Positions 39,647 to 63,996 of a DNA stretch of 64,000 bases are shown here, in pieces (the first letter of the stretch is position 1; each line of letters begins with the position of its first letter). Origin of the DNA: Lachnospiraceae bacterium (GTDB taxonomy: Bacteria > Bacillota > Clostridia > Lachnospirales > Lachnospiraceae); assembly GCA_015057325.1 (NCBI GenBank), contig SVEQ01000002.1:1-64000 (forward strand), read 5' to 3'. A program made the translations under genes and the position numbers. Below the pieces are notes generated by a model. That model was not told where the DNA came from, searched no databases, and saw only the letters and a program-made list of their open reading frames with translations.

Positions 39647-39674
39647 AAGCTGCCTTTTTAGGCAGCTTTTTTAT
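39647..39674 (+). terminator. Intrinsic terminator of the HPr-like gene
   Basis: AAGCTGCC-TTTTTA-GGCAGCTT forms an eight-pair stem followed by TTTTTTATT. Its left arm and loop include the stop codon of the convergent YfhO-family gene, so the hairpin is partly inside that coding sequence. Confidence 0.9.
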
Positions 39675-42261: not shown

Positions 42262-42281
42262 ATGAAAAATCCTCCGCAATA

Positions 42282-47282: not shown

Positions 47283-48413
47283 TTATTTTTCAAAAAAATG
47301 ATGAACGCAGTCAATTATATATGTTATCTCTTCCTCTTTCAAGCCATAATACATCGGGAGTCTAAGCAATCTCTCGCTCTCTGATGTGGTATATTTATCT
47401 TCCCCATGGAATCTTCCATACTTAATTCCCGCTTCGGAACTATGCAAAGGTACATAATGAAATACCGCCAATATGTCATGTTCTTTTAAGTATGCAAGCA
47501 ATTTTGTTCTAACGTCCAAATTATCAACTTTTATGTAGAACATATGAGCATTATGCTTGCACTCCTTAGGGATTATTGGAAGTGAAATATACCCCTTCTG
47601 TTCCAAATCGATAAGGCCTTCTCTATACATTTTCCATGATTTCATTCGATTATCATTAATCTCATCTGCACGCTCTAACTGTGCCCACAGATATGCAGCA
47701 TTTAACTCACTGGGCAAAAAAGATGAGCCCTTGTCAACCCATGTGTACTTATCAACCTGCCCTCTAAAGAACTGATTACGGTTAGTACCCTTTTCTCTTA
47801 TTATTTCTGCATGTCCAAGATAATCCGCGTTATTAAGAAGAATTGCTCCGCCTTCGCCCATGCTGTAGTTCTTTGTTTCATGGTAACTATAAGCGCCAAA
47901 ATCTCCGATAGTTCCAAGTGCTTTTCCTTTGTATGTGGCATGCATACCCTGTGCCGCGTCTTCAATCACAAAAAGATTGTGTCTTTTTGCCACATCATTA
48001 ATTACATCCATATCGCATCCGACACCTGCATAGTGAACCGGAACTATTGCTTTGGTCTTGTCTGTAATTGCATCTTCAATCAACTTCTCATCGATATTCA
48101 TTGTGTCCGGTCTTATATCTACAAATACAATCTTCGCACCATGAATAACAAATGCGTTTGCCGTTGATACAAACGTATATGATGGCATAATAATCTCATC
48201 ACCCGGCTCTATCCCGCATATTAACGAACTCATTTCCAATGCTGATGTACATGATGTTGTTAAAAGTATCTTTGCAGCATGCGTATACTCTTCCAACCAG
48301 TCCTGACATTTCTTTGTAAACTCACCGTCACCGCTTATTTTATTATTCTTTATAGCCTTAAGCATATAATCCTGCTCGCATCCAACATAAGGTGGCTTAT
48401 TAAATGGTATCAT
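47283..48413 (-). CDS. wecE: dTDP-4-amino-4,6-dideoxygalactose transaminase
   Basis: A DegT/DnrJ/EryC1 aminotransferase that makes dTDP-4-amino-4,6-dideoxy-D-galactose (Fuc4N) from the 4-keto sugar. IPFNKPPYVGCE, SCTSALEMS, PSYTFVSTANAFV, AAQGMHATYKGKALGTIGDFG and the PLP lysine K181 in HETKNYS are extremely close to E. coli WecE/RffA. 376 residues, full length. The dTDP-glucose enzymes RmlA and RmlB are not in the window. The companion WecD-like acetyltransferase candidate is at 52469-53188. GAGGA lies before the ATG. Confidence 0.93.
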   Translation of the reverse strand: MIPFNKPPYVGCEQDYMLKAIKNNKISGDGEFTKKCQDWLEEYTHAAKILLTTSCTSALEMSSLICGIEPGDEIIMPSYTFVSTANAFVIHGAKIVFVDIRPDTMNIDEKLIEDAITDKTKAIVPVHYAGVGCDMDVINDVAKRHNLFVIEDAAQGMHATYKGKALGTIGDFGAYSYHETKNYSMGEGGAILLNNADYLGHAEIIREKGTNRNQFFRGQVDKYTWVDKGSSFLPSELNAAYLWAQLERADEINDNRMKSWKMYREGLIDLEQKGYISLPIIPKECKHNAHMFYIKVDNLDVRTKLLAYLKEHDILAVFHYVPLHSSEAGIKYGRFHGEDKYTTSESERLLRLPMYYGLKEEEITYIIDCVHHFFEK

Positions 48414-48432
48414 ATCGTTCCTCTTTTCGTTA

Positions 48433-49839
48433 TTAACTCAATGCTGAATATATTCTTTTTCCCGAATCATTCTTAGGTATTTCAGGTATATATATTACTT
48501 CAAATGCCTTTCTGTTTAATCCCGTTTTTCCTGTTATATAATCCAATATTTCCTCATTAAGTTCCTGTTTGGTTACATATATTTTCATGTGGTCATCTAT
48601 TCCAACGCACGCACATTCCATATCCAAATACTTTCCCTGTAATAAGTTCTCGCATTCATCCATGTTAACACGATTACCGTATATCTTCAAAAATCTTTTC
48701 TTTCTTCCAACAATATAATAATATCCATCCTCATCACGACGTGCCATATCTCCCGTTGCAAGAACTCCACCACGTTCATCACCCTTTTGTAAGTCATTTG
48801 ACGATGTAGCATAGCCCAAAGTAACATTTTGGCCTCTGTAAATAAGTTCACCCGTAACGTTTGAACTGCTTATGTTATTACCTTTATCGTCAATTAAGGA
48901 AAACTCTCCACCGGGTATTGCAATTCCTATACTGCCGCATTTTGATAACGACTGCTCATGCGGAAGATACGACATTCTTGCTGTTGCTTCGGTCTGACCA
49001 TACATAACATAAAAACGAATATTTTTATCAGCAGCATACTGCGCAAACTCCTTATGTAATTCAGGGATAAGCTTACCGCCTGCCTGTGTCATATATTCAA
49101 GTGTCGGAAGTTCCATTCTGAAAAATCGCATTTTCTTGAGGATTTCATAGGTGTAAGGAACCCCACATATCGAAGTAGATCCTTGCGTTTTGAAGAAATC
49201 CCAAAATTGTTTCTGTACATAGCTATATTCCGTCATAAGGATACAACCGCCAACCAATAAATGACTGTTAATTACCGAAAGTCCATACGTATAATTCATC
49301 GGAAGCATCGTTATCGGCTTCTGTCTGTCATCAAGCTCCAAATACGAAGCAATCGCTTTGGCATTGGAACTAATATTATCATAAGATTGTCTGACCAGTT
49401 TGGGACTTCCCGTAGAACCCGAAGTAGTAAGCAGCAACGCCAAGTCCTCATGTAGATTCAGCTTATTATCAACGCTGCACTCGACAAGTTTGTAATCACC
49501 ATATGTATACAGACATTCAAAGTCTTCCTGTTTAAAACCTTCATGACTTACAGGTTTCCAGATATATTGTGGCTTATATGTTCTAACCAGATTATCTAAA
49601 AGATCATTATCTGTATCGGCTCCCAACAAAAGTGCTACATTAGAAGATGCTACCGTTGAAATATATCCAACTAACGAATCAATCGTGTTGCGGCATAAAA
49701 CAAAAACAAGATTCCTTTCACCGATAATGTCTTTGATTTTTCCGCTCACATCAACAAGTTCCCCATATGTTATTGTATTTCCCAAATCCGAAAGAGCAGC
49801 TGTTTTATTTCTCTCTTTAAGGTCTATATCCAAATACAT
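48433..49839 (-). CDS. AMP-dependent acyl ligase (ANL superfamily)
   Basis: An adenylating enzyme. TTSGSTGSPKLV (about residue 140) is the phosphate-binding loop, YGQTEATARM the A5 motif, and GELIYRGQNV, DEDGYYYIVGRKKRFLKIYGNRVN and PKNDSGK the C-terminal lid with its lysine. 468 residues. Acyl-AMP formation would load an organic acid onto the carrier protein at 52151 or onto CoA. The true start is the ATG at 49839 (GGAGG seven bases upstream). It is followed by wecE and preceded by LuxE-LuxC genes, as in the V. cholerae O1 rfbKLMNO region, where a similar ligase belongs to the tetronate pathway. Confidence 0.85.
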   Translation of the reverse strand: MYLDIDLKERNKTAALSDLGNTITYGELVDVSGKIKDIIGERNLVFVLCRNTIDSLVGYISTVASSNVALLLGADTDNDLLDNLVRTYKPQYIWKPVSHEGFKQEDFECLYTYGDYKLVECSVDNKLNLHEDLALLLTTSGSTGSPKLVRQSYDNISSNAKAIASYLELDDRQKPITMLPMNYTYGLSVINSHLLVGGCILMTEYSYVQKQFWDFFKTQGSTSICGVPYTYEILKKMRFFRMELPTLEYMTQAGGKLIPELHKEFAQYAADKNIRFYVMYGQTEATARMSYLPHEQSLSKCGSIGIAIPGGEFSLIDDKGNNISSSNVTGELIYRGQNVTLGYATSSNDLQKGDERGGVLATGDMARRDEDGYYYIVGRKKRFLKIYGNRVNMDECENLLQGKYLDMECACVGIDDHMKIYVTKQELNEEILDYITGKTGLNRKAFEVIYIPEIPKNDSGKRIYSALS

Positions 49840-49866
49840 ACATTTCCTCCGAAACAACATTAGTTA

Positions 49867-50934
49867 CTAACGTTCAAACGTATCACTGCAACCTCTGACT
49901 TCAGCATTTTTCATTCTGCCATACACTTCAAAATATTTGCCTTTGCGGCCGCACGGGCAATCATCCTCACCCAACACACATCCGATATCCTCTGTAAGTA
50001 TCGAATGTCCAGGATATGAATAAGGTAATGTAGATAACACCTGGATTGCACCGGTTTTGCCATAACTACACACAGAAAAATCTTCCATGTTACGAATAAT
50101 CACATCTGAATAAATGCTTGCATGAAGATGCCCACACTCACATTCCATATATATACAACCGGTTTGTTCCACCATACCATAATAATCGTGAACACTTGTG
50201 ATGCCGCAAACCTTTTTAAGTCCTTCTTTGAATTCCTCTTTAGATACTGCCTCATTTTCAAGTTTCTTCCAACCGCCACCATGTATCAACACACCATTTT
50301 CAAGCGGCAGATACTCATTAAGTTTGGCAAGTTTTTTATAAAAATATTGCCAAATCATAAATGTAAATCCAAACAATAGTATGGTTTGCCCCTCATACTG
50401 TTTGATAAACTCTTTAAGTTCGGCAACATTTAATTCCATATCATCATTGAAAGCATAAACCTTCTTTGTTCCAAAAAGCGAAAAGCCCAAGATTCCTGCT
50501 CCTCTCGCAGAAAACATATTGCGATTCTTAAGTACGGATGGACAATCAAGAATTATCATCGGCATTCTAGACTTTCCGGTGTACTCGGTAACAATACTTG
50601 CAAGAACTTTTTGTTGTAAGCCTGCCGTTTCTTTATCAAGAAATATCCTTGATACCTGTTGTCCCGAAGTCCCCGAAGATGTCATTATCTTAAAAACTTC
50701 GTCATCCGATATGCTTTTTAGTTCCATCCTCTTAAAAATTCCAACCGGCAAAAACGGAATGTCCTCAACATTCTCATAAGTTTTTAAGCCACCGCATAAT
50801 TTATCAATGAAGTTTTGATATTCCTTACAATTTTCATAATGATGTCTTGTAAGAAAGTCAAGACGCTCTGACAGTATTTTGTTTTTTTGAACATGATCGT
50901 CTTCATACGGAGCATGCTTAAGTATTTCTTCCAT
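49867..50934 (-). CDS. LuxE-like acyl-protein synthetase (copy 1)
   Basis: LuxE-family enzymes adenylate a carboxylic acid and pass the acyl group through their own cysteine to LuxC. TSSGTSGQQVS (about residue 93) is the adenylation loop. The final residues, NAEVRGCSDTFER, place a cysteine seven residues from the end, similar to the acyl-accepting Cys of bioluminescent LuxE. Two cysteine pairs, CECGHLH and DDCPCGRKGKY, are also conserved in the second copy at 57924 and may bind zinc. Weak ribosome site. It follows LuxC by five bases. 355 residues. Confidence 0.85.
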   Translation of the reverse strand: MEEILKHAPYEDDHVQKNKILSERLDFLTRHHYENCKEYQNFIDKLCGGLKTYENVEDIPFLPVGIFKRMELKSISDDEVFKIMTSSGTSGQQVSRIFLDKETAGLQQKVLASIVTEYTGKSRMPMIILDCPSVLKNRNMFSARGAGILGFSLFGTKKVYAFNDDMELNVAELKEFIKQYEGQTILLFGFTFMIWQYFYKKLAKLNEYLPLENGVLIHGGGWKKLENEAVSKEEFKEGLKKVCGITSVHDYYGMVEQTGCIYMECECGHLHASIYSDVIIRNMEDFSVCSYGKTGAIQVLSTLPYSYPGHSILTEDIGCVLGEDDCPCGRKGKYFEVYGRMKNAEVRGCSDTFER

Positions 50935-50939
50935 AACAA

Positions 50940-52142
50940 CTACCCAATTATTCTGCTCATGGCATTGATAATGTCAAAACCATCCCAAATAGTATCAATA
51001 TCAAGAGTCTTTCCAAACGGAACAACTCTGTCTATACCGTGCATTCCGGATTTGACAATATAATCCATAACAGCCTTTTCTTCAAATCCACACACAGCAC
51101 ACGTTTGAAGTTTCTTATCGTCTAATTTCGAAATAAAATCCAATGAGTCAATTACGCACTCATAAAACATACCATATCTTCCACGACAGTTATTAACTGC
51201 TTGCGCCGGCACATCTGATAAATCGCATACATAAAGTCTGTTTGAATAACTCTTAATATCTTTAATAGTCAAACCTCTACGAATATCCATAACCGCCTCA
51301 CACAAGTCAAGATATTTATCACTTGCTTTAATGTTTGCAAGCTCATACTTTGTCGCAACATCCGATACTTTATTCCAAAACAAAGCCTTTGCCGTTTTAA
51401 TTTCTTCATCATTACATCCGTCTTTATGAAAAAGGATTAAATGTGGACTTGAACATGCATTTTGATCCATAAGATAAGTATCGTTATAAAAATCATTGCA
51501 CACGGACGTCAGGTCAGAATCCGACATCTTCAAAATTGAAGGAACATTTACTATTCCAAATGAATACCTGTCCGCAAATGTTAGTTCTATACTTCTTGGC
51601 GGTAAATATATCTGTCTTATTTTATTGATGGTTTCATCGCCACCCCAAATCACTCTGACGTCGCATTGCGAAGAGTATTCCTTTGTCATCAAATCATCAT
51701 TTCTGTCATATTTAACAAACGATGTCATCTTACTAATAACAGAAAAATTATCTTCCTTAAGCACTTCCTTAAGCACTCTTAACATACAATTGAGTGAAGC
51801 AAAATCAGTTGACGGAAGCTTGACGATATTAATGTTGCCCGCAAGCAATCCGAAAGCATATGTAAACATACAATTAACAGGAACATTAGACGGTGCAATA
51901 TGAAAAACCACACCTCGTCCAACACGCCTGTTACTTCCATCACATCTGTCAAATTGTATCTTTTTTGCAGTGATATTCCCCTTACGTGCCCAAAAAGCAA
52001 AAGACATGACATCTCCAAAGGCTCTTGCCTCTTTGTCATGCCGAAGCTTATCCGAATAGTAATCCAAAAATTCGCACACCACATCAGAATAAGGTGGTAA
52101 CGCACGCATATTAAGTTGAATATCTCCTACAATATTCGCCAT
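50940..52142 (-). CDS. LuxC-like acyl reductase (copy 1)
   Basis: A member of the LuxC acyl-CoA/acyl-protein reductase family, related to aldehyde dehydrogenases: it takes the acyl group onto C230 (DQNACSSPHL) and releases an aldehyde using NAD(P)H. HIAPSNVPVNC (81-91) and VIWGGDETI (164-172) are family motifs. The 400-residue length is normal. The gene lies directly between acyl carrier protein and LuxE genes; no luciferase (LuxA/B) exists here, so light production is excluded. A nine-base gap separates it from the ACP gene. Confidence 0.87.
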   Translation of the reverse strand: MANIVGDIQLNMRALPPYSDVVCEFLDYYSDKLRHDKEARAFGDVMSFAFWARKGNITAKKIQFDRCDGSNRRVGRGVVFHIAPSNVPVNCMFTYAFGLLAGNINIVKLPSTDFASLNCMLRVLKEVLKEDNFSVISKMTSFVKYDRNDDLMTKEYSSQCDVRVIWGGDETINKIRQIYLPPRSIELTFADRYSFGIVNVPSILKMSDSDLTSVCNDFYNDTYLMDQNACSSPHLILFHKDGCNDEEIKTAKALFWNKVSDVATKYELANIKASDKYLDLCEAVMDIRRGLTIKDIKSYSNRLYVCDLSDVPAQAVNNCRGRYGMFYECVIDSLDFISKLDDKKLQTCAVCGFEEKAVMDYIVKSGMHGIDRVVPFGKTLDIDTIWDGFDIINAMSRIIG

Positions 52143-52150
52143 GTTACTTA

Positions 52151-52390
52151 TTATATCTCCACTTCGTACTTCTTAAGAATCTCTATGCCCTTCTCATAAG
52201 AACTTAAATCAATTATATCGTCTGTATCCATCATAATATCAAACGCGTCTTCAAGTGCAGCCACAAGTCCCATATGACCGACAGAATCCCATTGTGGAAT
52301 CGATTGGTACTCAAGTCCTTCTTTAACAACGTCCTTATCAATCTCTAAACCTTCTGCAAATGCTTCAATATACTTTTCTAAATTAGTCAT
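52151..52390 (-). CDS. Acyl carrier protein
   Basis: A 79-residue four-helix carrier. The phosphopantetheine serine is in WDSVGHMGLV (about residue 36), with acidic helix II (EDAFDIMMDTDDI). The DSV motif differs from the DSL of fatty-acid ACP, which indicates a dedicated carrier. It likely carries the acyl chain made by the neighbouring ligase and Lux enzymes and donates it to the GNAT. The ATG at 52390 has AAGGAG seven bases upstream; a GTG one codon earlier is less likely. Confidence 0.88.
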   Translation of the reverse strand: MTNLEKYIEAFAEGLEIDKDVVKEGLEYQSIPQWDSVGHMGLVAALEDAFDIMMDTDDIIDLSSYEKGIEILKKYEVEI

Positions 52391-52468
52391 CACAATACTC
52401 CTTATTTCTTTAACATTCGTAACCTATATATTTTATCATATAAACTATCAGGCGGCAACTTCAAACGT

Positions 52469-53188
52469 TCAATCATTATGCTTAATAAATATATGGTTTA
52501 TACCCTTGGTACGATATCCGTTAATCTCAAGAGCACGAAGCTGTCCCGGGTTATTGGAAGATACTTGCGTTTCGACTCTTTTTCCGCCCAATTTTCTAAC
52601 TATTTCCTGCTCCTTTTGAACGATTCCAAGACCGGTATTCCTGTACTTTTCATATCCTCCTCCAAGTACAGAGTTATATATAATCGCATCTTTTGTCTGA
52701 AGAATGACAAATCCTGCAGGATCATTTTTATATAAGTCCACGTAAAACAGTGCTTTTTGCTCTATAAGATCATTTACCCAGTTTATGTATCTGTCAGACG
52801 CTTTTGTGTTATCAAAATATGGATCGTTGGTTATTCTGTCTGTGGAAAACAATCCGCCTTCAATTTCTTTTTTCAGAAACTCTACATCTTCCCTGGTCAT
52901 TTCTCTATAAGACATTGCATCATATAACCTTTGATGCATCTTACTTCTTTCTGCTTCCTTAAGGTCATGCTCAACCAAAATCATATCCTCAACGTAGGTA
53001 TAGCCATGTTTTGCAAAATAAGCAGTTACATCTGCCCGCAACGAAGGAACCTTGCAAACGATGTATTGCGCCGAAAGAGTTTTCATTTTGGATTCGATTT
53101 TATTAATATCATCCTCATTTTCAATTTGAATCTCTAACGTTGAAACCCCGAGATTTCTTTCTTCCCAATATGCGTCTGTTATTATCAT
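52469..53188 (-). CDS. GNAT-family N-acyltransferase, WecD-like
   Basis: A two-lobed GNAT protein of 239 residues. The C-terminal half has the acetyl-CoA/acyl-pantetheine loop YRNTGLGIVQ and the following helix with RALEINGYR; the N-terminal lobe (WEERNLGVSTLEI) resembles WecD, which N-acetylates dTDP-Fuc4N made by WecE. Since the next gene encodes an acyl carrier protein, an acyl-ACP donor is a plausible alternative to acetyl-CoA. GAGG lies before the ATG. It stands 78 bases before the ACP gene, the widest gap in the cluster. Confidence 0.75.
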   Translation of the reverse strand: MIITDAYWEERNLGVSTLEIQIENEDDINKIESKMKTLSAQYIVCKVPSLRADVTAYFAKHGYTYVEDMILVEHDLKEAERSKMHQRLYDAMSYREMTREDVEFLKKEIEGGLFSTDRITNDPYFDNTKASDRYINWVNDLIEQKALFYVDLYKNDPAGFVILQTKDAIIYNSVLGGGYEKYRNTGLGIVQKEQEIVRKLGGKRVETQVSSNNPGQLRALEINGYRTKGINHIFIKHND

Positions 53189-53201
53189 TATTAATCTTAC
53201 C

Positions 53202-54146
53202 TCATTGCTTATTTGTTGTCTTTTGACCTGCTATATCCTTAATGACATACTGTGGCGAGTTATTAATGCATATATATATTCTTCCAATATATTCTCCAAC
53301 CAATCCAAGCATAACCATAAGTATTCCACCTACAATAAGTATTACGGAAATGGTCGAACTCCAACCGGCCATCATTTTAGGATTAATAATTCTTCTGATT
53401 ATCGTAATTATTGCATATACAAAACCGACTATCGCAGTGAAAAATCCCAAATAAGCTCCCAATTCCAACGGCTTGACAGAAAATGCCGTAAATCCGTTAA
53501 GCCACAGAGAAACAAGCGCTTTGAAACTATATCCGGACTTTCCTTCTATTCGGTCCCTATGATTGACATTCACAAAGCCCATATTTCTCGTTACTCTCAT
53601 TAAAAGACCGGCTATATAAGGATATGAATGTTCGTACTTAATTATCTCATCTATAACAAAGCGTTTGCACACAAAGAAACTGCTTCCCTTATTGTCGTCT
53701 CCCTTTATATCAAACATGTAATCCGACATTTTCTTTGCTAAATCCGAACCCCAACGTCGGAACGCATTTTGATGTGTTTCCGGATAAGAAGCATACACAA
53801 CATCATATCCGTTTTCAAATGCATCTATAAGATTAAAAACTTCGCATGCCGGCGTCTGACCATCATCATCAAGGGACACAACATAGTCTCCCGAAACATT
53901 GTTATATCCTGCCATAAGTGCACAATGCTGACCAAAATTCTTAGCAAGATTAATTCCAATAACATGACTATTTTTTTCTGCCAATTTAGAAATAACACTC
54001 CACACATTATCCGGCGAGCCGTCGTTAACCAAAACAATCTCATGTTCATATTCAGGGCGTTGCTTCATCGTATCTTCTATTTCATTTACAACAATCTCTA
54101 TCGTGTGTTCAGAACGATAGCATGGTATTACAAATGATATTTTCAT
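53202..54146 (-). CDS. Undecaprenyl-phosphate glycosyltransferase (GtrB/ArnC-like GT2)
   Basis: Residues 1-220 are a GT2 domain of the DPM1/GtrB type: FVIPCYRSEHTIE, NDGSPDN and the metal motif SLDDDGQ (about 94). IEGKSGYSFKALV precedes two membrane helices at about 235-255 and 265-290. GtrB-like enzymes move a sugar from a nucleotide donor to undecaprenyl phosphate, and the YfhO genes downstream would use that lipid-linked sugar. Start at the ATG (54146), preferred to the upstream TTG, with GGAG eight to ten bases upstream. It follows the ThDP enzyme by 16 bases. Confidence 0.87.
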   Translation of the reverse strand: MKISFVIPCYRSEHTIEIVVNEIEDTMKQRPEYEHEIVLVNDGSPDNVWSVISKLAEKNSHVIGINLAKNFGQHCALMAGYNNVSGDYVVSLDDDGQTPACEVFNLIDAFENGYDVVYASYPETHQNAFRRWGSDLAKKMSDYMFDIKGDDNKGSSFFVCKRFVIDEIIKYEHSYPYIAGLLMRVTRNMGFVNVNHRDRIEGKSGYSFKALVSLWLNGFTAFSVKPLELGAYLGFFTAIVGFVYAIITIIRRIINPKMMAGWSSTISVILIVGGILMVMLGLVGEYIGRIYICINNSPQYVIKDIAGQKTTNKQ

Positions 54147-54168
54147 TACCAATACTCCTCCAATGTCT

Positions 54169-55980: not shown

Positions 55981-55994
55981 TATCTGCTACTCCT

Positions 55995-56738
55995 TTATCT
56001 TAGTCCTCCATCAACTCTAAGCACCTGTCCCGTAACAAACGAAGACATATCAGAACCTAAATATACAACCGCATCTGCAATTTCTTCAGGCTTTCCTTTT
56101 CTGTGCATGATGTTCATTGAAAGAGCAATTTCCTCATCCTCTTTGCTCATACTGTTACCCATATCGGTTGCCGTAAGTCCCGGTGCAACAGCATTTACTC
56201 TAATGTTAAATGGTCCATATTCCACGGCAAGCCTTCTCATTTCTCCGATAATCGCAGCCTTGCTCGACGAATACTCTATATTGGCTCCGCCGTCAAATGC
56301 TGCAGATGAAGAAATATATACTATGCTTCCATTCTTATTACGCATCATATTTCTTGCAAGAAGCTGTGTTAATAGCATTTGTGAAAACAAATTAATATCA
56401 AATGCATTCTTAATAGTCTCAAGCTTTGTCATTGCCAAAGAACTTAACGGATTACTTGTTCCTGCATTGCAAACCAATACATCAATTGGTAATTTGTCGG
56501 ACATAATCTCCTTCGCTCCGGCTTTAATCTGTTCTTCATCTGATAAATCAACAATTATCTTTTTTATAAAGACATCATTTTTTTCACTTAACTCTTTTAT
56601 GTAATTGTCAAGCTCTTCTGAATCAGTTCTTATTACCGCATATACATTCGCACCGTTATTGGCAAACTTTTCAAGTATCGCTTTGCCAATTCCACGGTTA
56701 CAACCCGTTATTACCGCATTTTTCCCTTTAAGTAACAT
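55995..56738 (-). CDS. Short-chain dehydrogenase/reductase (FabG-like, copy 2)
   Basis: A classical SDR of 247 residues: TGCNRGIGKAI is the NAD(P) loop, CNAGTSNPLSS the NAG motif, SSSAAFDGG and the catalytic YSSSK pair follow, and the C-terminal RVDGGLR ends the fold. It probably reduces a keto group in the pathway, such as the acyloin from the ThDP enzyme 14 bases downstream. It is related to the SDR at 60831. AAAGG lies before the ATG. Confidence 0.88.
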   Translation of the reverse strand: MLLKGKNAVITGCNRGIGKAILEKFANNGANVYAVIRTDSEELDNYIKELSEKNDVFIKKIIVDLSDEEQIKAGAKEIMSDKLPIDVLVCNAGTSNPLSSLAMTKLETIKNAFDINLFSQMLLTQLLARNMMRNKNGSIVYISSSAAFDGGANIEYSSSKAAIIGEMRRLAVEYGPFNIRVNAVAPGLTATDMGNSMSKEDEEIALSMNIMHRKGKPEEIADAVVYLGSDMSSFVTGQVLRVDGGLR

Positions 56739-56758
56739 AACCTTTCCTTCCTGCTTAT

Positions 56759-57949
56759 TTAAGCATATACAATTCTTGTCATATTCTCTATCATGTTATA
56801 ACCATCCCACACAAACTCAAGTGCCATTGTCTGTCCAAGGTCTACTACTCTGTCAACACCTCTTACTCCGTTTTCAACAACAAAATCTCTGACCTTGTCT
56901 TTATCAATACCTAAAACCGAAATAGTCTGGCAACGTTTATTAAGAACAGGCAAAACCTCTTCAAGTGCATTTGCGTTATATTCAAAAAAATATCCGCCAC
57001 CGTGTTTGTAGTCAAGAACATCTTCTGTTAGTTCATCAAGAGCAACACGCATAATATAATTCTCATATGATTTAATCTTTGCACCTTTTTTACTCATAGC
57101 AAGTTCACAAAAAGCCGCATACTTATCAACCGCAACAACCGGCTCCATCGTATACTTTTCCTTAACCACAGATAACAATTCATTCCAAAATGATGCCTTT
57201 GCCTCATCAATCTTACTGCCAAACCAGACAACAAGTCTTGGAGAACTGCAGGCGTTCTGGTCTGTATAATATGTGTCGGTAAAGAAGCCTTTGGCTACTT
57301 CTCTTTTATCCTGTGTCAAATAATAATCTGAATCAATCAGTGCTATCGAATGTCTGTCAGCAAACGTCATTTCAATTGCCCTCGGTGGAATAGACGCACT
57401 TCTTATTCTTCTTATCGTCTCATCTCCCCCCCAGATAATTCGTATATCGCATATCGCTGATATCTGACTTGTTATTTCATCATCATGGGGATATCTGACA
57501 ATGCAAAAGTAACCTTTAATATCCTCATATTCCCCCGATAAGAGATCATTTATTGCATCACATACGATAGATACCTGTTCAAAATCCTTGTCTGAAACAC
57601 GTATTACAACGCTGTTGCCGGCAAGTAGTGCCGAAGTCATTGATACCGCAAAATTAATCGGCACATTGGAAGGTGAGATATGAAAAGACACACCTCTGCC
57701 CAATCTTGAAAGTTCCATATCATATGAATCCTTTATCCTTTCAAGCGAGCTTTTACGTATCCAATACGCATAGGACATTACATCCTGGTATCCTCTGCTT
57801 CTCTTATCATCCATCAGTTTTCTTGAAAGGTCTTCCAAAAACTTAAGCATCTTATCTGAAAACATAGGCAGTGCGGGATTATCTTGTATCAAGTTAAGAA
57901 TATCTTTATCGCCCACAAGGAAGTTAATTTTTTCCGTATTTATCAGCAT
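56759..57949 (-). CDS. LuxC-like acyl reductase (copy 2)
   Basis: Paralogue of the LuxC at 50940: HISPSNVPINF (90-100), IIWGGDETI (171-179) and C234 in DQNACSSPRL are aligned features. 396 residues. I chose the ATG at 57949 (AGGGGG upstream, 11 bases); the longer frame to 57979 would overlap the LuxE gene further. It overlaps the preceding LuxE gene by about 26 bases, so the pair is translationally coupled. It reduces a LuxE-bound acyl group to an aldehyde. Confidence 0.85.
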   Translation of the reverse strand: MLINTEKINFLVGDKDILNLIQDNPALPMFSDKMLKFLEDLSRKLMDDKRSRGYQDVMSYAYWIRKSSLERIKDSYDMELSRLGRGVSFHISPSNVPINFAVSMTSALLAGNSVVIRVSDKDFEQVSIVCDAINDLLSGEYEDIKGYFCIVRYPHDDEITSQISAICDIRIIWGGDETIRRIRSASIPPRAIEMTFADRHSIALIDSDYYLTQDKREVAKGFFTDTYYTDQNACSSPRLVVWFGSKIDEAKASFWNELLSVVKEKYTMEPVVAVDKYAAFCELAMSKKGAKIKSYENYIMRVALDELTEDVLDYKHGGGYFFEYNANALEEVLPVLNKRCQTISVLGIDKDKVRDFVVENGVRGVDRVVDLGQTMALEFVWDGYNMIENMTRIVYA

Positions 57950-59009
57950 AGGTATCACTGCACCCCCTAAGTTCTGCACTCTTAAGTCTTCCGATTATCT
58001 GAATGTATTTGCCTTTTCGTCCGCAAGGGCAATCATCTTCACCAAGAATTATTCCTTCATCCTCGGTAAGCAACGAATGGCCGGGATACGAATGAGGAAG
58101 TGCCGATACAACCTGAATAATGCCCTTCTCACCTATATCACACGGCGAAAAATCCTCGTATCTTCTCGTAATTACATCTGAATAAATGCTTGCATGAAGA
58201 TTACCGCATTCGCATTCCGCATAAATGCAGCCGGTCTGTTCTACCATTCCGTAATGGTCAAGAAAATGTCCGATATTGCAAACACTTTTAAGTTTTTCCT
58301 TAAACAATTGTCTTGAAACAGCTTCCGACTCAAGTTTTTTCCAGCCGCCTCCTGTCATAAGGAAAGCCTCGCTCATATCGTATTTCTTATCTGCTTTCAA
58401 GAGTTCTTTATAGAAATGTTCCCATACAAGAAACGTAAATCCAAATATTATAAATCTTCCGTCACCGTACTTGCTTAAAAAGTCGTCAAGTACGTCAAAG
58501 TTAAGCGTCATATCATCATTTGACGCATAAACCGTATCTCTTGAAACCACCTGCAAGCCTATTATAGCCGCACCTCTTGCCGTAAACATCTCACGGTTTC
58601 TTACAACCTCGGGCGTGTCTATTACAAGCATCGGAAGTCTTTTTTTCCCCCAATATGAAGATAAAATCTTAACCATTACCTTCTGCTGAATCATGGCAGT
58701 TTCTTTATCAAGAAATATCTTAGAAACCTTCTGTCCTGTCGTTCCTGATGAAGTCATGGTCTTAAATACTTCATCATCGCCTATACTCTTTAAGTCATAT
58801 TCCTTAAACATTCTGACCGGAAAAAAGGGTATATCCGCAACTCCTTTAACATTCCCGGCGTCGTAGCCCACAGCTTCAAGAAAATCAGCGTATTCCTTAC
58901 ATTTATCTTTGTGAAGAGAAGTAAGTTCTATCAATTCCTTTCTTAACATCTCCTCTTTGTCTGCACTATTAAGTTCATAAGGATCTAATTCATAGAAATC
59001 GTTTATCAT
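57924..59009 (-). CDS. LuxE-like acyl-protein synthetase (copy 2)
   Basis: Paralogue of the LuxE at 49867: TSSGTTGQKVS adenylation loop, the double cysteine motifs CECGNLH and DDCPCGRKGKY, and a C-terminal NAELRGCSD-type end with the candidate acyl-accepting cysteine (SAELRGCSDTYADKYGKN). The start at 59009 has GGAG eight bases upstream and overlaps the stop of the transketolase gene as ATGA. 361 residues. Transketolase, LuxE, LuxC and SDR form one tight block. Confidence 0.85.
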   Translation of the reverse strand: MINDFYELDPYELNSADKEEMLRKELIELTSLHKDKCKEYADFLEAVGYDAGNVKGVADIPFFPVRMFKEYDLKSIGDDEVFKTMTSSGTTGQKVSKIFLDKETAMIQQKVMVKILSSYWGKKRLPMLVIDTPEVVRNREMFTARGAAIIGLQVVSRDTVYASNDDMTLNFDVLDDFLSKYGDGRFIIFGFTFLVWEHFYKELLKADKKYDMSEAFLMTGGGWKKLESEAVSRQLFKEKLKSVCNIGHFLDHYGMVEQTGCIYAECECGNLHASIYSDVITRRYEDFSPCDIGEKGIIQVVSALPHSYPGHSLLTEDEGIILGEDDCPCGRKGKYIQIIGRLKSAELRGCSDTYADKYGKN

Positions 59010-59986
59010 GCACGATTCTCCCATTCAACTTCTATTCGCCACGCAATCTTTTCATGCGTAAGTCCTGCCTGTTCCAATACATACCGCTGACTTCCGGCAT
59101 CCAAAAAACTGTCGTTAAAACCAATAAATACCTGTCTTGGCGAAACTTCCTTTGTTGCCTTATACTCCGCAACAGCACTTCCCATACCGCCCACAACATT
59201 GTGCTCTTCGACAGTTACAACAAGCTTATGCGTTTTAAAAATTTCATCAAGTGTATCTGTATCAAGTGGTTTTATTGTGTGCATATTATAAAGCGTACAA
59301 TTAACACCTTTTTCTTCAAGTTCTTTAACAGCCTTTACCGCCTCACTTACCAAAAGTCCCGTTGCAATTACTGCGATATCACCCTTCTTTTCGGAAAGGC
59401 AAACCATTTTACCCGGTTCAAACTCATAATCCGCTCTGTAAACAATCGGACAATTAAGCCCACCGCTTAGTCGTATATACATCGGTTCGTCCGTCGATGC
59501 CGCATACTCCATAACCTTGATTGTTTCCAAACAATCCGCCGGTGAAAACACCTTAAGATTCGGCAACGCTCTCATAAATGCTATGTCTTCCGTAGCCCAA
59601 TGTGAAACTCCTGACTTTGCAGCCACAACCCCTGCCGATGAACCGATCAACTTAACATTACACTTAAGATACGATAAATGCTGCCTGACATGCTCAAGGC
59701 TCCTAACCGCAATAAAAGACGCATATGTTGTTGCAAAAACAACATCGCCCTCCATAGCAAGTCCCGCTGCTATTCCAATCATATTCTGCTCCGCAATTCC
59801 GACATTTAAAAACTTGTCAGGATACATCGACACATATCTGTCCATTCCCGAAAGTAGTGCCAAATCGGCGGTTAACAGTTTTACATTATCCAATTTTGAA
59901 GCAATATCCGGCATTGCAACACCAAACGCAGTGCCACGCTGACCGAGCATTGACCATTTTCTTATATTGACAGATGTTATATCCAT
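59006..59986 (-). CDS. Transketolase, C-terminal subunit (pyrimidine-binding half)
   Basis: The pyrimidine-binding and C-terminal domains of a split transketolase/DXS-like enzyme. E66 in VGIAEQNMIGI activates ThDP, and HxxTHWATEDIAFMR and the downstream GSAVAEY stretch belong to the PYR/C domains. The partner is the subunit at 60001-60834. Split transketolases occur in Archaea and clostridia, often for housekeeping use, but here they are inside a Lux/aldolase cluster. Two-carbon ketol transfer to an aldehyde is the expected chemistry. AGGAG lies seven bases before the ATG. Confidence 0.88.
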   Translation of the reverse strand: MDITSVNIRKWSMLGQRGTAFGVAMPDIASKLDNVKLLTADLALLSGMDRYVSMYPDKFLNVGIAEQNMIGIAAGLAMEGDVVFATTYASFIAVRSLEHVRQHLSYLKCNVKLIGSSAGVVAAKSGVSHWATEDIAFMRALPNLKVFSPADCLETIKVMEYAASTDEPMYIRLSGGLNCPIVYRADYEFEPGKMVCLSEKKGDIAVIATGLLVSEAVKAVKELEEKGVNCTLYNMHTIKPLDTDTLDEIFKTHKLVVTVEEHNVVGGMGSAVAEYKATKEVSPRQVFIGFNDSFLDAGSQRYVLEQAGLTHEKIAWRIEVEWENRA

Positions 59987-60000
59987 AGAAAAACTCCTAC

Positions 60001-60834
60001 TTATTCTTCTGTTATCTCCCCAACAGCCTGTTCATACTCATCTTTTGACAACCTGTGGTGATGCCACTCTCTTCGATTCTCAATAAATGATACACCTTTG
60101 CCCTTAACGGTTTCGGCAACAACGACATGTGGTTTACCCTCTGTAGCGTCTTTAAATGCCTCCAGAAGCGATTCCACGTCATGTCCGTCACAACAACTTA
60201 CATGCCAGTTAAAACTCTCTAATTTCGCCTTCAACGGCTCTATACCCATAACTTCTTCGGTATCACCGTCATACGATAAATGATTCCTATCTATTATTGC
60301 AACAAGGTTATCCAACTTAAAATGAGCCGCAGACATAAACGCTTCCCAAATCGAGCCCTCGTTAAGTTCTCCGTCGCCAAGCAAAATATATACCTTGTTA
60401 TCAATCTTCTTTTCCTTAAACTTAAGCGCTATTCCTATTCCTACGGATATAGCCATACCAAGACTTCCCCCTGAATACTCAAGTCCGATTTCTTTTCTCA
60501 TCGGATAACCGGTAAGTCTTCCACCATCCTTCTGAAACTCTGAAAGCTCTTCTTTTTCAATGAATCCCGCCTCACAAAGAGCCGGCAAATGAGCCAGAAC
60601 ACAATGATTCTTACTTGGTATGAATCTGTCTCTCTCAAACTTTTTGGGATTGTTGACATCATAATCCATAACCTTGCCATACAAAACCGCAAGAATCTCG
60701 ATACACGAAAGTCCGCCACCAAGATGAGAACCGTTGTTACCTGATGTTAATGCCATATCAAGAGCATTAAGTCTCATTCTCTTTGCCATTGCTTTTAAGT
60801 TGTTAATATCATCAGCATTCCAATTCAAACTCAT
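60001..60834 (-). CDS. Transketolase, N-terminal subunit (PP-binding half)
   Basis: The diphosphate-binding domain: GSHLGGGLSCIEI with His37, the ThDP-Mg motif GDGELNEGS (153-161) with N184 in IIDRNHLSYDG, and the family PSKNHCVLAHLPAL segment. 277 residues. The reading frame starts as ATGA over the stop of the SDR gene upstream, and the partner subunit follows after 14 bases. Both subunits are needed for an active site. Compared with transketolase A, the sequence is typical of the archaeal/clostridial split form. Confidence 0.9.
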   Translation of the reverse strand: MSLNWNADDINNLKAMAKRMRLNALDMALTSGNNGSHLGGGLSCIEILAVLYGKVMDYDVNNPKKFERDRFIPSKNHCVLAHLPALCEAGFIEKEELSEFQKDGGRLTGYPMRKEIGLEYSGGSLGMAISVGIGIALKFKEKKIDNKVYILLGDGELNEGSIWEAFMSAAHFKLDNLVAIIDRNHLSYDGDTEEVMGIEPLKAKLESFNWHVSCCDGHDVESLLEAFKDATEGKPHVVVAETVKGKGVSFIENRREWHHHRLSKDEYEQAVGEITEE

Positions 60835-61577
60835 GCTCTTCCACCATCAACCTTCATTATTTCACCTGTAACATAAGATGCTTCATCAGAAGCGAGGAAC
60901 AATACAGCCGAAGCAATTTCAGAAGGCTTACCCATTCTTCTAAGTCCTGTTCTGTTAATTGTTTTTTCTATCTCTTCGTCAGATTTAAATCTACCCATCT
61001 CGGTATCCGTAAGTCCCGGAGCCACTGCATTGACCCTGATATTATATATGCCAAGTTCTTTTGCAACCGACTGTGTTGCCCATATAATAGATGCCTTACT
61101 TGAGCCATAGGCAAGATAACCCGGATTTGTCTCTATTCCTCCAACCGAAGCGATATTAACAATACTTCCCGATTTCTGTCTTTGCATAATTCTTGATACC
61201 AACTGCATTATCAAGACAGGTGCAAAATAATTAACTTGAAATACTTCCTTAATCTTATCAACAGGAGTCATCTGCATAAGTCCACCATATGCAACGCCCG
61301 CATTATTTACAAGAACATCTATAGACTTCTTCTCTGCTATAATAGACTTAATTGCAGTAGTTATCGCATTATCATCAGTCAAGTCAAAATATACCGGTGT
61401 GATTTCAACGCCGAATTCTTTTGCTGTTTCTTTGATGAAGTTTTCAAACTCTTCGCTCTCTTTTCTGGCACAAGCCCATACGTTAGCACCCTTTTGAGCA
61501 AAGCGAATCACAAGTTCTTTTCCTATTCCACGATTTGTTCCGGTAATGATAACGTTCTTTCCTGAAAAATCCACCAA
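60831..61577 (-). CDS. Short-chain dehydrogenase/reductase (copy 1)
   Basis: A classical SDR: TGTNRGIGKELVI cofactor loop, VNNAGVAYGG, the catalytic YGSSK and C-terminal MKVDGGRA. 249 residues with the predicted start. No ATG is available near the N-terminus: GGAGGG is followed six bases later by TTG (61577) and nine bases later by GTG, so a TTG or GTG start is expected; the longer frame reads through that site and overlaps the aldolase gene. It overlaps the transketolase start by four bases. It probably reduces the keto product of the transketolase or aldolase. Confidence 0.85.
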   Translation of the reverse strand: MVDFSGKNVIITGTNRGIGKELVIRFAQKGANVWACARKESEEFENFIKETAKEFGVEITPVYFDLTDDNAITTAIKSIIAEKKSIDVLVNNAGVAYGGLMQMTPVDKIKEVFQVNYFAPVLIMQLVSRIMQRQKSGSIVNIASVGGIETNPGYLAYGSSKASIIWATQSVAKELGIYNIRVNAVAPGLTDTEMGRFKSDEEIEKTINRTGLRRMGKPSEIASAVLFLASDEASYVTGEIMKVDGGRA

Positions 61578-61596
61578 ATCTTCCCTCCGTATAAAA

Positions 61597-63216
61597 CTAC
61601 TCTTTAATTTCAAATGAACTCTCGGTAATAAATGTAATGTTCATTTGTCCTTTATTTGAATAATAGAAATCTCTGTACATATCCGCAATTTCACGGTTTA
61701 ACTTATCCCAATCGTTGTCCGGATTAATTGTCGGCAAAGACTCATCTGCATAGCTTTCGTTATAATGAGTTCCAAACTCATCAAATCCAGCAATATAAAC
61801 ATCCGTTGCTCCAAGCTTGCCAAGAAGTCTCAAACAATTAATAACCGCGTTGTCAAAATGATCCCAACCACGCTTAACAACACGATTGAAATTAATAATT
61901 AATTCATCATCATTTCCTTCAGACTTGATATTGGACAACAGTATTTTTTTTGTATCCTCAAACCTTTTTGTGTATGCGTCTTTTGCATAATCATATCTGA
62001 CCGAATTGATAAAAAACAAATAATCTGCCGGATAATAAGTGCTGACCGCATTAACATCTATTATTATCGGAGAATTATCATCAATAAATGCCTGTATATC
62101 ATTCTTACACGTTTCTGATTTCTTACCCGGTGCCACAAGAAGAACTTTTCTTCCCGAAATACCATCGGATAATTCCTTCATAGCCGATTCATCATCAACC
62201 ATTCTATTCTGATTTTCAAGATACTTTTGTTCAAGCAAATCATAGTCATAATGTCTTCTCTCTTCCTCCGAAAGAGAAGCTATAATATTACGCATATCAT
62301 GTGCATTGGTTCTATGATTCTTCGTAAGATATGCAATATTGTTGACATGACACTGATACATTCCCGCAATAAAGTACGGCGTGGAATACCCCCACATATA
62401 CTTTTCATGGAAGCCCTGCATGTATGTATCAATAGCATCCATTATCACATTCATATCATAGTTGCCGTAACATTTTCTCTCAAGATACCCTGCAACAAGC
62501 TCGGTAGTGGCGTTACCTGCACCTCGACCCATACCGTTAAGCGTTGCATCAATAATTATTCCACGCTCCGACTCACTCATTATATCAACAAAGCTTATAC
62601 AAAGAGCGAATGCCAACTGCTGATTATTGTGTGCATGAAAACCCAATTCTATATTCTTGTCCAAAGTTGCATCCAATATGTCAACTATTCGTCTCAAATC
62701 ATCGAAATACATCGCACCGAATGTATCCACAATTGAAACCGAATCAGGCATAAACTTGTTCATACAATCGGCAAGTTCTTTCAAATCATCATCGCTATAT
62801 GCCAACGTATTAGCCGCCTGAAACATTACTCTGTAGCCTTTGCTTCTTATCGCCTCGCCAATAATTATTGCTTCCTTATGCTTTCCATGTGGAAAAACGA
62901 CTCTAATTGCATCCACCGTCTTATTATCACATACAGGAAGATTGGCGACGTTATATCTGTCCCAATCAATCATTACTGAATACAACGAATTACTGTTCTT
63001 GCTTCTTACATATTGCGACAGATCGTCAGGAACATGATAGTAACTTGTTCCCTTCTTATATTCATCATCCTTCAACCAGCCACACTCTATAATATCCACA
63101 TTGGCGTCCTGCATTTTTGAAATGATACCGGTTATAGCAGCTTCACCAAAGTATGAATTTGTTATATATGCACCGTCTCTTAAAGTGCAATCCAATAATT
63201 TAACCAATCGTCTCAA
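61597..63216 (-). CDS. Two-domain aldolase: HMGL-like TIM barrel plus a C-terminal domain
   Basis: Residues 6-290 are a TIM barrel of the DRE-TIM/HMGL-like family (4-hydroxy-2-oxovalerate aldolase, isopropylmalate synthase): LLDCTLRDGAY holds the catalytic Arg-Asp, GFHAHNNQQLA the metal HxH, and GMGRGAGN the glycine-rich loop. Residues 355-544 form a second domain (VLLVAPGKKSE, ADYLFFINSVRYDY, VYIAGFDEFG) resembling DUF115/6-hydroxymethylpterin-kinase-like domains found in surface-glycan enzymes. Class II metal-dependent aldol addition of pyruvate, or acetyl-CoA condensation, is expected. The start at TTG 63216 has GGGAGAGG five bases upstream; the ATG at 63231 has none. Confidence 0.78.
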   Translation of the reverse strand: MRRLVKLLDCTLRDGAYITNSYFGEAAITGIISKMQDANVDIIECGWLKDDEYKKGTSYYHVPDDLSQYVRSKNSNSLYSVMIDWDRYNVANLPVCDNKTVDAIRVVFPHGKHKEAIIIGEAIRSKGYRVMFQAANTLAYSDDDLKELADCMNKFMPDSVSIVDTFGAMYFDDLRRIVDILDATLDKNIELGFHAHNNQQLAFALCISFVDIMSESERGIIIDATLNGMGRGAGNATTELVAGYLERKCYGNYDMNVIMDAIDTYMQGFHEKYMWGYSTPYFIAGMYQCHVNNIAYLTKNHRTNAHDMRNIIASLSEEERRHYDYDLLEQKYLENQNRMVDDESAMKELSDGISGRKVLLVAPGKKSETCKNDIQAFIDDNSPIIIDVNAVSTYYPADYLFFINSVRYDYAKDAYTKRFEDTKKILLSNIKSEGNDDELIINFNRVVKRGWDHFDNAVINCLRLLGKLGATDVYIAGFDEFGTHYNESYADESLPTINPDNDWDKLNREIADMYRDFYYSNKGQMNITFITESSFEIKE

Positions 63217-63243
63217 TGTAACCTCTCCCATTTTATTGCATTA

Positions 63244-63996
63244 TTATTGTTCTAACGAAAACATTAGAATTGACAAAACCGTCATTCCCGCTGTTTCCGT
63301 CCTAAGAATCCTGTTACCAAGGGTTATAATCTTACCACCTATATCTGATAATGTTTCAATCTCCGATGTATCAAAACCGCCCTCAGGACCGATAAATACA
63401 CCTATCTTTTTTTCTTTTACTGCCTCAGAAATAATCTTTTTTGAGTACTCAACCCCCTCTGCACACTCATACGGTATTATAACATAGTCAAGTTCCTTTG
63501 CATAGGAAAGTGCTTCCTTCATGCTCATCACAGGCTTAACTTCAGGAACGATTCCTCTCTTGGACTGCTTTGCAGCACTAAGAGCAATTGTGTTAAGACG
63601 TTCAACCTTTTTCGAAGCTTTTTTTTCGTCGAGTTTGACAACACATCTGTTCATCATAACAGGTACAACTTCAAACGCTCCAAGCTCGACAGCCTTTTGA
63701 ATAATCTGCTCCATTTTATCCCCTTTAGGATAGCCCTGGAACAATGTAATCTTAGCGGGCAATTCCCTGCTTTGTCCATATACGTCTGTAATCTTCAATG
63801 ACACGGCAGCATCTCCACCACCGTCATTAACATACTCCACAATGCTAGCTTCATATTCTCTGTCACTTCCATCACTAAGAAGTACATTTTCTCCGACTTT
63901 CATTCTTAACACATTGCGGATATGATTATAGTCATCACCGCTAATGCTTATGTACTCGTTATTAAGTTGTTCCGGATCTATAAAAAAGCGATACAT
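63244..63996 (-). CDS. rsmE: 16S rRNA (uracil1498-N3)-methyltransferase
   Basis: A SPOUT-family methyltransferase of full length (250 residues). The N-terminal PUA-like domain is at 1-70, and the C-terminal knot has FIGPEGGFDTSEIE and LGNRILRTETAGMTVLSIL, the SAM-binding signatures. It methylates U1498 near the decoding site. The cluster transcript appears to continue from here: the aldolase start is only 27 bases past this stop, with no terminator visible. Confidence 0.93.
   Translation of the reverse strand: MYRFFIDPEQLNNEYISISGDDYNHIRNVLRMKVGENVLLSDGSDREYEASIVEYVNDGGGDAAVSLKITDVYGQSRELPAKITLFQGYPKGDKMEQIIQKAVELGAFEVVPVMMNRCVVKLDEKKASKKVERLNTIALSAAKQSKRGIVPEVKPVMSMKEALSYAKELDYVIIPYECAEGVEYSKKIISEAVKEKKIGVFIGPEGGFDTSEIETLSDIGGKIITLGNRILRTETAGMTVLSILMFSLEQ

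Follow-up and report, generated by a model that had tools for sequence, protein, structure and literature searches.

A run of minus-strand genes in a 64,000-nucleotide stretch of DNA from Lachnospiraceae bacterium (positions 1 to 64,000 of contig SVEQ01000002.1, assembly GCA_015057325.1; 'the window' hereafter) very probably serves the making of a surface glycan. The best explanation of the whole, put forward tentatively from the gene families and their arrangement, is that it may build a surface-attached sugar of the 4-amino-4-deoxyfucose (Fuc4N) type that bears a branched, polyhydroxylated acyl chain. The operon at issue extends from a two-domain aldolase through a split transketolase, two LuxE/LuxC pairs and a thiamine diphosphate (ThDP) carboligase to the aminotransferase WecE and the glycosyltransferase YfhO. 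The 14 contiguous minus-strand genes of the original prediction are all present where it placed them (intergenic distances −56 to +75 bp) and their families are borne out by Pfam and NCBIfam profile searches, used throughout for family assignment, and by motifs; best structures come from PDB searches. Its boundaries, 47283..63216, fared less well, as the aldolase open reading frame (ORF) starts at 63231, so that the 14 genes span 47283-63231, and YfhO (44649-47273) had been missed. The run from the aldolase to YfhO is predicted from gene spacing to be one operon.

Labels are needed for the comparisons: G-numbers are the genomes compared, with G000 the window's own 3.05 Mb genome, and L-numbers are loci, with repeated contigs counted once (L093 = L176; L097 = L104). 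Among 26 genomes of the genus the whole contiguous cluster is present in two, G000 and G400, and since the G400 copy (L176) has the same order at 71-95% identity per gene the grouping is not due to chance. The linkage in relatives, whose absence in a neighbourhood search was to refute the original prediction, holds for parts of the scaffold, which are linked elsewhere, and not for the whole set, contiguous only in these two.

The ThDP enzyme (54169..55980), with three domains and with GDG and HHEQ motifs, had been described as 'ALS-like', i.e. resembling acetolactate synthase. That it is a ThDP enzyme stands, but it is nearer to JanthE, of the YerE/ErwE type of carboligase. Its best PDB match is JanthE (8rph, E 4.5e-103, 349 bits, versus E 6.6e-67 and 229 bits for acetohydroxyacid synthase (AHAS) I), the alignment reaches residue 601 of 619 in 8rph and ends at 544 of 562 in 6lpi, and identity on the typed segments is 34.2% to JanthE versus 29.0% to acetolactate synthase. 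An acetolactate synthase role was ruled out on this nearness to JanthE and on the second Arg of the AHAS GARFDDR stretch, which we take to be the acceptor-carboxylate residue, being Glu here and Pro in JanthE. With a YerE/ErwE-like enzyme the acceptor is more likely to be a ketone than a 2-oxo acid. On the donor side, ErwE is reported to use 4-hydroxy-2-oxo acids (PMC12247030), and JanthE to use 4-hydroxy-2-oxovalerate together with benzaldehyde (PMC12188165). For an erwiniose aldolase the literature offered nothing beyond these two ThDP papers, judged by title, among the matches listed.

What travels with this enzyme in the genus is informative. A window-type ThDP enzyme (53-90% identical) is present in all six genomes that have LuxE1 (G000, G400, G397, G418, G414 and G399) and in none of the 20 that lack it, whose closest matches do not exceed 39% identity (Fisher 4.3e-6 over the 26 genomes, kinship uncorrected). 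All six further carry a gene of pyruvate-aldolase type, either within the operon or next to the ThDP gene, though not of one kind: G000, G400 and G397 have the two-domain HMGL aldolase (the G397 copy is cut by a contig end), G418 has an HMGL-like protein of 273 residues, G414 an HpcH/HpaI protein of 267 residues, and G399 an HpcH/HpaI gene that is cut short. Three aldolase types beside one ThDP enzyme are what would be expected if the shared need were a 4-hydroxy-2-oxo acid donor. The G399 scaffold contig and its ThDP-enzyme contig both break inside an HpcH/HpaI gene, making the order SDR2, a further short-chain dehydrogenase/reductase (SDR), an AroB-like cyclase, aldolase, ThDP enzyme, family 2 glycosyltransferase (GT2), two small ORFs and GNAT likely there. 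Joint replacement of aldolase and ThDP enzyme in G399 was considered and dismissed, the ThDP enzyme being on a separate contig and the aldolase type alone differing. The AroB-like gene, a putative sugar phosphate cyclase over the TIGR04425 cut-off, is at L168:10400-11476 beside the G399 scaffold, and a similar gene below that cut-off (L100:8289-9356) stands beside an aldolase and a YerE-type enzyme in G330. AAA-ATPase-like genes, perhaps mobile, are present inside the G399 cluster (L168:2407-4008, with PDDEXK_9) and adjoining SDR2 in G397 (L188:528-1292).

The window's aldolase (61597..63231) has an N-terminal DRE-TIM domain of 4-hydroxy-2-oxovalerate aldolase type, with that fold and a helical domain by fold comparison, and a C-terminal domain of Maf/MptE/GT42-like fold; the comparison of the whole protein effectively covered residues 5-341 and the C-terminal part was modelled separately. 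It scores below the curated 4-hydroxy-2-oxovalerate aldolase cut-offs (91 versus 229 and 80 versus 286 bits). Aldolases 59-67% identical to it have a YerE-type gene no more than 4.5 kb away in all nine further loci with both flanks, with RfbH, a companion of branching of the erwiniose type, over its cut-off in six of them. Distant aldolases at first had a ThDP neighbour in 0/11 cases; three more in the genus (30-32% identity; G404, G410 and G411) do have one, giving 3/14 with the matches in G406 and G413 and a second one in G411 left out, and the contrast between close and distant aldolases is weakened to that extent. From this company the aldolase probably feeds the ThDP enzyme.

On what does the split transketolase act? 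Its N-terminal, ThDP-binding half, TktN (60001..60834; PF00456, best PDB match 6yak), and its C-terminal half, TktC (59006..59986; PF02779 and PF02780, best match 6yaj), are over the cut-offs and closest to the split enzyme of Carboxydothermus. The window's pair and those of nine loci were aligned with the second split copy in the window's own genome (L147), 6yaj/6yak and human transketolase. In the C half a His shared by 6yaj, the human enzyme and L147 is replaced by S, T, G, A or D in all ten cluster transketolases, none of the ten retains the Asp of the GED stretch, and eight lack an Arg further on; the window has Ser at both the His and the Asp places, while L147 keeps His, Asp and Arg. 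These presumably correspond to H461, D469 and R520 of the E. coli enzyme, which bind phosphate or acceptor. Loss of these substrate-site residues argues for an unphosphorylated acceptor, for example an aldehyde made by LuxC, and such an aldehyde is, by a narrow preference, the predicted acceptor.

The source of aldehydes would be the LuxE/LuxC pairs. LuxE1 (57924..59024; PF04443, 186 bits), LuxC1 (56759..57979, start uncertain; PF05893, 101 bits), LuxC2 (50940..52142; PF05893, 114 bits) and LuxE2 (49867..50934; PF04443, 206 bits) are all over the Pfam cut-offs; both LuxC proteins have DQNAC (at 240 in LuxC1 and 226 in LuxC2), and both LuxE proteins have RGCSD at the C terminus, that of LuxE2 aligning to the GCS of LuxE 7xc6. 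They are not the proteins of bioluminescence, which was ruled out by the NCBIfam equivalogs (43.7 and 69.5 versus 750 bits for LuxC, 79.7 and 84.9 versus 550 for LuxE). The acyl carrier protein (ACP; 52151..52393, GTG start) has a DSV motif with the carrier serine; it has no Pfam match, and its NCBIfam ACP matches are weak and below cut-off. The AMP-forming acyl ligase (48433..49860; PF00501, 129 bits) has oxalate-, oxalyl- and malonyl-CoA ligases as its best PDB matches.

How common are such modules in the family? Searching 397 family genomes gave 49 with a LuxC1 match at E 0.001 or better; the 26 loci other than the window's own at E 2.1e-59 or better were read and 22 weaker ones (E 4.8e-17 or worse) left out. 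LuxE is present in all 26 (in L052 as a contig-edge fragment), the AMP ligase in 25 and ACP in 22. ACP was not found in L039, L051, L052 and L057, by tblastn likewise in L039, L051 and L057; L039, L052 and L057 are cut by contig ends. A split TktN and TktC accompany the core in nine loci and are missing from 17, and a window-like ThDP enzyme or aldolase is in none of the 26. The coupling of acid reduction to carboligation that the original prediction had proposed thus agrees with genes that do travel together, transketolase in the nine loci and the ThDP enzyme with LuxE1 in the genus, while the ACP/AMP-ligase/LuxE/LuxC core itself is of an already known kind.

Other genes near these cores deserve mention in their own right. 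NeuB-like proteins, of a family that condenses phosphoenolpyruvate with aldehydes, are near LuxE/LuxC/ACP in four of the 26 loci (L034:12209-13210, Pfam-tested, L037:7083-8150, L041:18093-19136 and L048:3687-4748). In two loci a thioesterase near ACP and LuxE lies between LuxE and the ligase (L034:7506-8216 and L036:11894-12601, one member Pfam-tested), and in four a protein of metallo-beta-lactamase fold adjoins ACP (L040:5086-5760, L046:11631-12344, L054:6909-7661 and L055:6908-7558, one Pfam-tested). LuxD in light-producing bacteria frees acids for LuxE, and these thioesterases and metallo-beta-lactamase-fold proteins could release acids from ACP for the same recipient. LuxE-LuxC fusions in a single frame of 763-783 residues are found in four loci (L038:8318-10642, L055:4687-7038, L170:6601-8892 and L171:7188-9479). 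In G074 an ACP 76% identical to the window's is one gene away from a 62% identical aldolase at a contig end (L104:8995-11332, G074:C98), and another contig of that genome (L039, G074:C100) starts with AMP ligase, LuxE and LuxC; the two are perhaps one split cluster like that of the window.

The destination of the chain is suggested by the remaining genes. WecE (47283..48413), the dTDP-4-keto-6-deoxyhexose 4-aminotransferase of Fuc4N type, is over two curated NCBIfam cut-offs (TIGR02379, 637 versus 435 bits; NF008687, 629 versus 375), and the genome has RmlB (TIGR01181, 495 versus 365 bits, at G000:C7). The GNAT-type acyltransferase (52469..53188), a distant relative of WecD for which the PDB search gave no match, adjoins ACP in the window and in G400, G414 and G418 and is apart from it in L037 and L042. 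Minimal cassettes of rsmE, two small ORFs, WecE, YfhO and nifS in G401 and G406 have, in both cases, no tblastn match for GNAT, ACP, LuxC1 or LuxE1. With GNAT beside ACP, and both absent from the minimal WecE-YfhO cassettes, GNAT is read as joining an ACP-bound acyl group to the sugar amine. The GT2 (53202..54152; PF00535, with a hydrophobic C terminus as judged by eye) is of the PgfS/ArnC kind, that of undecaprenyl-phosphate sugar transferases, though below both curated cut-offs (PgfS 180 versus 500 bits, ArnC type 176 versus 529), and YfhO (44649..47273), a PgfM-like glycosyltransferase, has 305 versus 28.5 bits for PF09586. As far as family assignments go, WecE, GNAT, GT2 and YfhO together suggest an acylated Fuc4N on undecaprenyl phosphate. 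Attachment to dTDP-Fuc4N, as originally predicted, is favoured by WecE, RmlB and the GNAT-ACP adjacency; we infer, leaning slightly this way, that the finished chain acylates Fuc4N instead of branching a sugar ring.

A pathway drawn from family and context would yield a 4-amino-4,6-dideoxyhexose, probably Fuc4N, linked to undecaprenyl phosphate and bearing on its amine a short acyl chain that is branched and polyhydroxylated. LuxE1 would activate a small carboxylic acid and LuxC1 reduce it to the aldehyde, onto which, when free, the split transketolase would place a C2 ketol unit to give an alpha-hydroxyketone. The aldolase would combine pyruvate with an aldehyde to a 4-hydroxy-2-oxo acid, and the YerE/ErwE-type enzyme would decarboxylate the latter and place the acyl-anion unit on the ketone from the transketolase step to give a branched tertiary alcohol. 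New ketones may be reduced by the FabG-like SDR1 (60831..61613, TTG start in the ORF list) and SDR2 (55995..56738), both profile matches with YxxxK, with LuxE2 and LuxC2 providing a second acid-to-aldehyde step. The AMP ligase would load the finished acid onto ACP and GNAT pass it on to the amino group of the sugar that WecE makes; GT2 would hand the sugar to undecaprenyl phosphate, and YfhO would move it outside the membrane onto a surface polymer or protein. That the steps follow exactly this order is doubtful.

The main rival keeps the same enzymes and divides their labour. Here the aldolase and the YerE-type enzyme would decorate a nucleotide 4-keto-6-deoxysugar, giving a branched sugar of erwiniose or yersiniose type, while ACP, LuxE, LuxC and GNAT would separately supply Fuc4N with a small hydroxyacyl group, one operon thus serving two decorations. 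The substrate of YerE is indeed CDP-3,6-dideoxy-4-ketohexose, and ErwE takes a sugar of that kind (PMC12247030); RfbH stands in most of the loci with a close aldolase, and dTDP-4-keto-6-deoxyglucose should be available because RmlB is in the genome. Yet Pfam and NCBIfam profiling found neither RfbH nor any other CDP-3,6-dideoxy-4-ketohexose gene among those of the operon, which has a single GT2, and the window-type ThDP enzyme tracks LuxE1 exactly in the genus. Moreover, the genome holds another YerE-type gene elsewhere (L192:10189-11961, G000:C23), near a nucleotidyltransferase and a 444-residue DegT protein of RfbH size, perhaps a branched-sugar cluster. Such a division of labour is on balance unlikely.

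Less is asked of the operon if it makes a short linear hydroxyacyl group by a simple tetronate-like route, LuxE and LuxC reducing a carboxyl, an SDR completing the reduction to the alcohol, and transketolase and aldolase supplying no more than precursors; a reduction of this sort has been proposed for Vibrio cholerae O1. The ACP, AMP ligase and LuxE/LuxC set is of the same kind as in the locus of that strain (RfbL and RfbK, PMC12208996) and in flagellin islands, and cores without transketolase are, as given above, the commoner sort in the family. But so simple a product sits awkwardly with two full LuxE/LuxC pairs and three carbon-carbon bond enzymes in one operon, and with a transketolase diverged at its substrate site, unlike a precursor-supply enzyme; we regard it as rather improbable. 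Could the chain instead be a nonulosonic-acid-like or cyclised sugar made from scratch, with WecE acting on that and not on dTDP-4-keto-6-deoxyglucose? The NeuB-like proteins near LuxC, the AroB-like cyclase of G399 with its sub-threshold relative in L100, and a cytidylyltransferase beside the scaffold in G414 speak for this, but all of these genes are outside the window's operon and WecE clears the curated thresholds for the family it is named after, which leaves the idea very improbable.

Several observations weigh against the acylated-Fuc4N explanation itself. By cut-off GNAT is not WecD (NF008212, 25.7 versus 219 bits) and it has no Pfam match, and G397 has no WecE at E 1e-100. In the same genome the gene following LuxE1 is not a LuxC, and ThDP enzyme and LuxE1 are on separate contigs there and in G414, G418 and G399 (in the last both contig ends break in one gene). 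The genomes of the genus are related, with G414 and G418 looking like sisters, so that the counts are not independent. The presence of transketolase in nine of the family's 26 LuxC loci, and of a window-like ThDP enzyme in none, implies that most LuxE/LuxC modules are simpler in function. In the loci with RfbH the same pair of aldolase and YerE-type enzyme would be expected to work on a sugar ring instead of an acyl chain. One close aldolase (62%, L097/L104), excluded from the nine loci, borders a contig end, and its other flank of 10 kb has no ThDP gene. The catalytic sites also give pause. Tyr22 of the aldolase is where 8ih7, a 4-hydroxy-2-oxovalerate aldolase, has a His after LRDG, presumably the catalytic residue of such aldolases, which makes its aldol chemistry uncertain. 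In the N half of the transketolase the active-site His of the GHP stretch, present in L147, 6yak, the human enzyme and seven of the other eight cluster enzymes, is Tyr in the window and in L033 (Gln in L041), which could mean a different chemistry.

Single parts of the operon have known relatives, and its novelty is in the combination, a variant of known surface-sugar pathways. In open-access literature LuxE/LuxC with transketolase or aldolase in a polysaccharide cluster was not found described, a weak absence; the earlier statement that no described system with this exact gene set is known agrees with what was found, save for the core. RfbN of V. cholerae O1 has a LuxE/LuxC make-up. In that strain RfbL is said to activate 2,4-dihydroxybutanoate, with CoA or the carrier RfbK as its putative destination (PMC12208996), and the locus yields perosamine bearing tetronate (PMC3441752). 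The window shares with its wbe locus (rfbK, rfbL and rfbN) an ACP, an AMP ligase and LuxE/LuxC with a 4-aminosugar transaminase, a likeness of gene kinds in which both would serve to acylate a 4-amino-4,6-dideoxyhexose of the cell surface, but has two LuxE/LuxC pairs, split transketolase, aldolase, YerE-type enzyme and two SDRs in addition, with a WecE-type sugar and GT2/YfhO in place of the O-antigen route. Flagellin islands of Aeromonas and Enterobacteriaceae similarly hold ACP, 3-oxoacyl-ACP reductase, AMP ligase, LuxE and LuxC beside sugar genes (PMC7874193, PMC4875605); unlike for the window, the word transketolase does not occur in these two papers, where aldolase and YerE-type enzymes were not searched for. 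The branching enzymes YerE, ErwE and JanthE (yersiniose, erwiniose) are of the same ThDP decarboxylase type and have relatives paired with a pyruvate aldolase, but their CDP-sugar genes have no counterpart in the operon. The Carboxydothermus hydrogenoformans transketolase (6yaj/6yak) is likewise two genes with the same halves, differing in its intact substrate site (His and Asp in 6yaj, His in 6yak); split transketolases have also been proposed for amipurimycin and miharamycin (PMC12247030). An ArnC/PgfS-like GT2 and a YfhO in one operon fit, by analogy, the multi-component CsbB/PgfS-GtcA-YfhO systems that glycosylate cell-wall polymers, although a flippase gene was not seen in the window's operon and the GT2 is under both cut-offs. 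With enterobacterial common antigen the operon shares a WecE over cut-off and not a WecD, and the acyl donor would here probably be ACP-bound.

From rsmE (63996) to nifS (43481) there are 18 consecutive minus-strand genes at the spacing given above, in the order rsmE, aldolase, SDR1, TktN, TktC, LuxE1, LuxC1, SDR2, ThDP enzyme, GT2, GNAT, ACP, LuxC2, LuxE2, AMP ligase, WecE, YfhO and nifS. The flanks, conserved by synteny and assigned by profile, are the 16S rRNA methyltransferase RsmE (63244..63996), 12 bp upstream, and the NifS-type cysteine desulfurase (43481..44635), 13 bp beyond YfhO, which itself follows WecE by 9 bp. Of the 21 loci around rsmE that were read in the genus, 11 have nifS directly next to it, so that the operon occupies a variable slot. 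In G401 and G406 this slot holds two small ORFs (both EamA in G401), WecE and YfhO; G409 has in it an SDR, a protein of 1440 residues with repeats of the BspA type, and YfhO. The interval (window 43481-63996; L173, L174, L175) is thus a place of exchangeable surface-sugar cassettes, the full acyl cluster included. A second YfhO gene (39661-42279) is downstream of thiI (42285-43466), so that two YfhO genes flank nifS-thiI.

Two of the enzymes can be named as individually expressible: the split transketolase without the usual phosphate-site residues and the aldolase fused to a Maf/GT42-like domain. A wider proposal is that repeated LuxE/LuxC acid reduction with carboligation by aldolase, transketolase and YerE-type enzyme is a new chain-building route to a polyol acid, branched and sugar-like, that a carrier protein holds and that ends as an acyl group on an aminosugar. 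In it the Lachnospiraceae LuxE/LuxC clusters with exchangeable carbon-carbon bond enzymes (transketolase, NeuB-like, HMGL, HpcH/HpaI, YerE-type) would represent versions of a single modular assembly line, and we hold it to be somewhat unlikely as a whole. If the reading of the operon given here is right, branching of the YerE/ErwE type would not be confined to sugar rings but would reach acyl chains as well, and the LuxE/LuxC pairs of glycan clusters could be given a clear job, that of supplying ThDP enzymes and aldolases with free aldehydes. That reading would also predict a previously unknown surface sugar in the Lachnospiraceae, bacteria common in animal guts.

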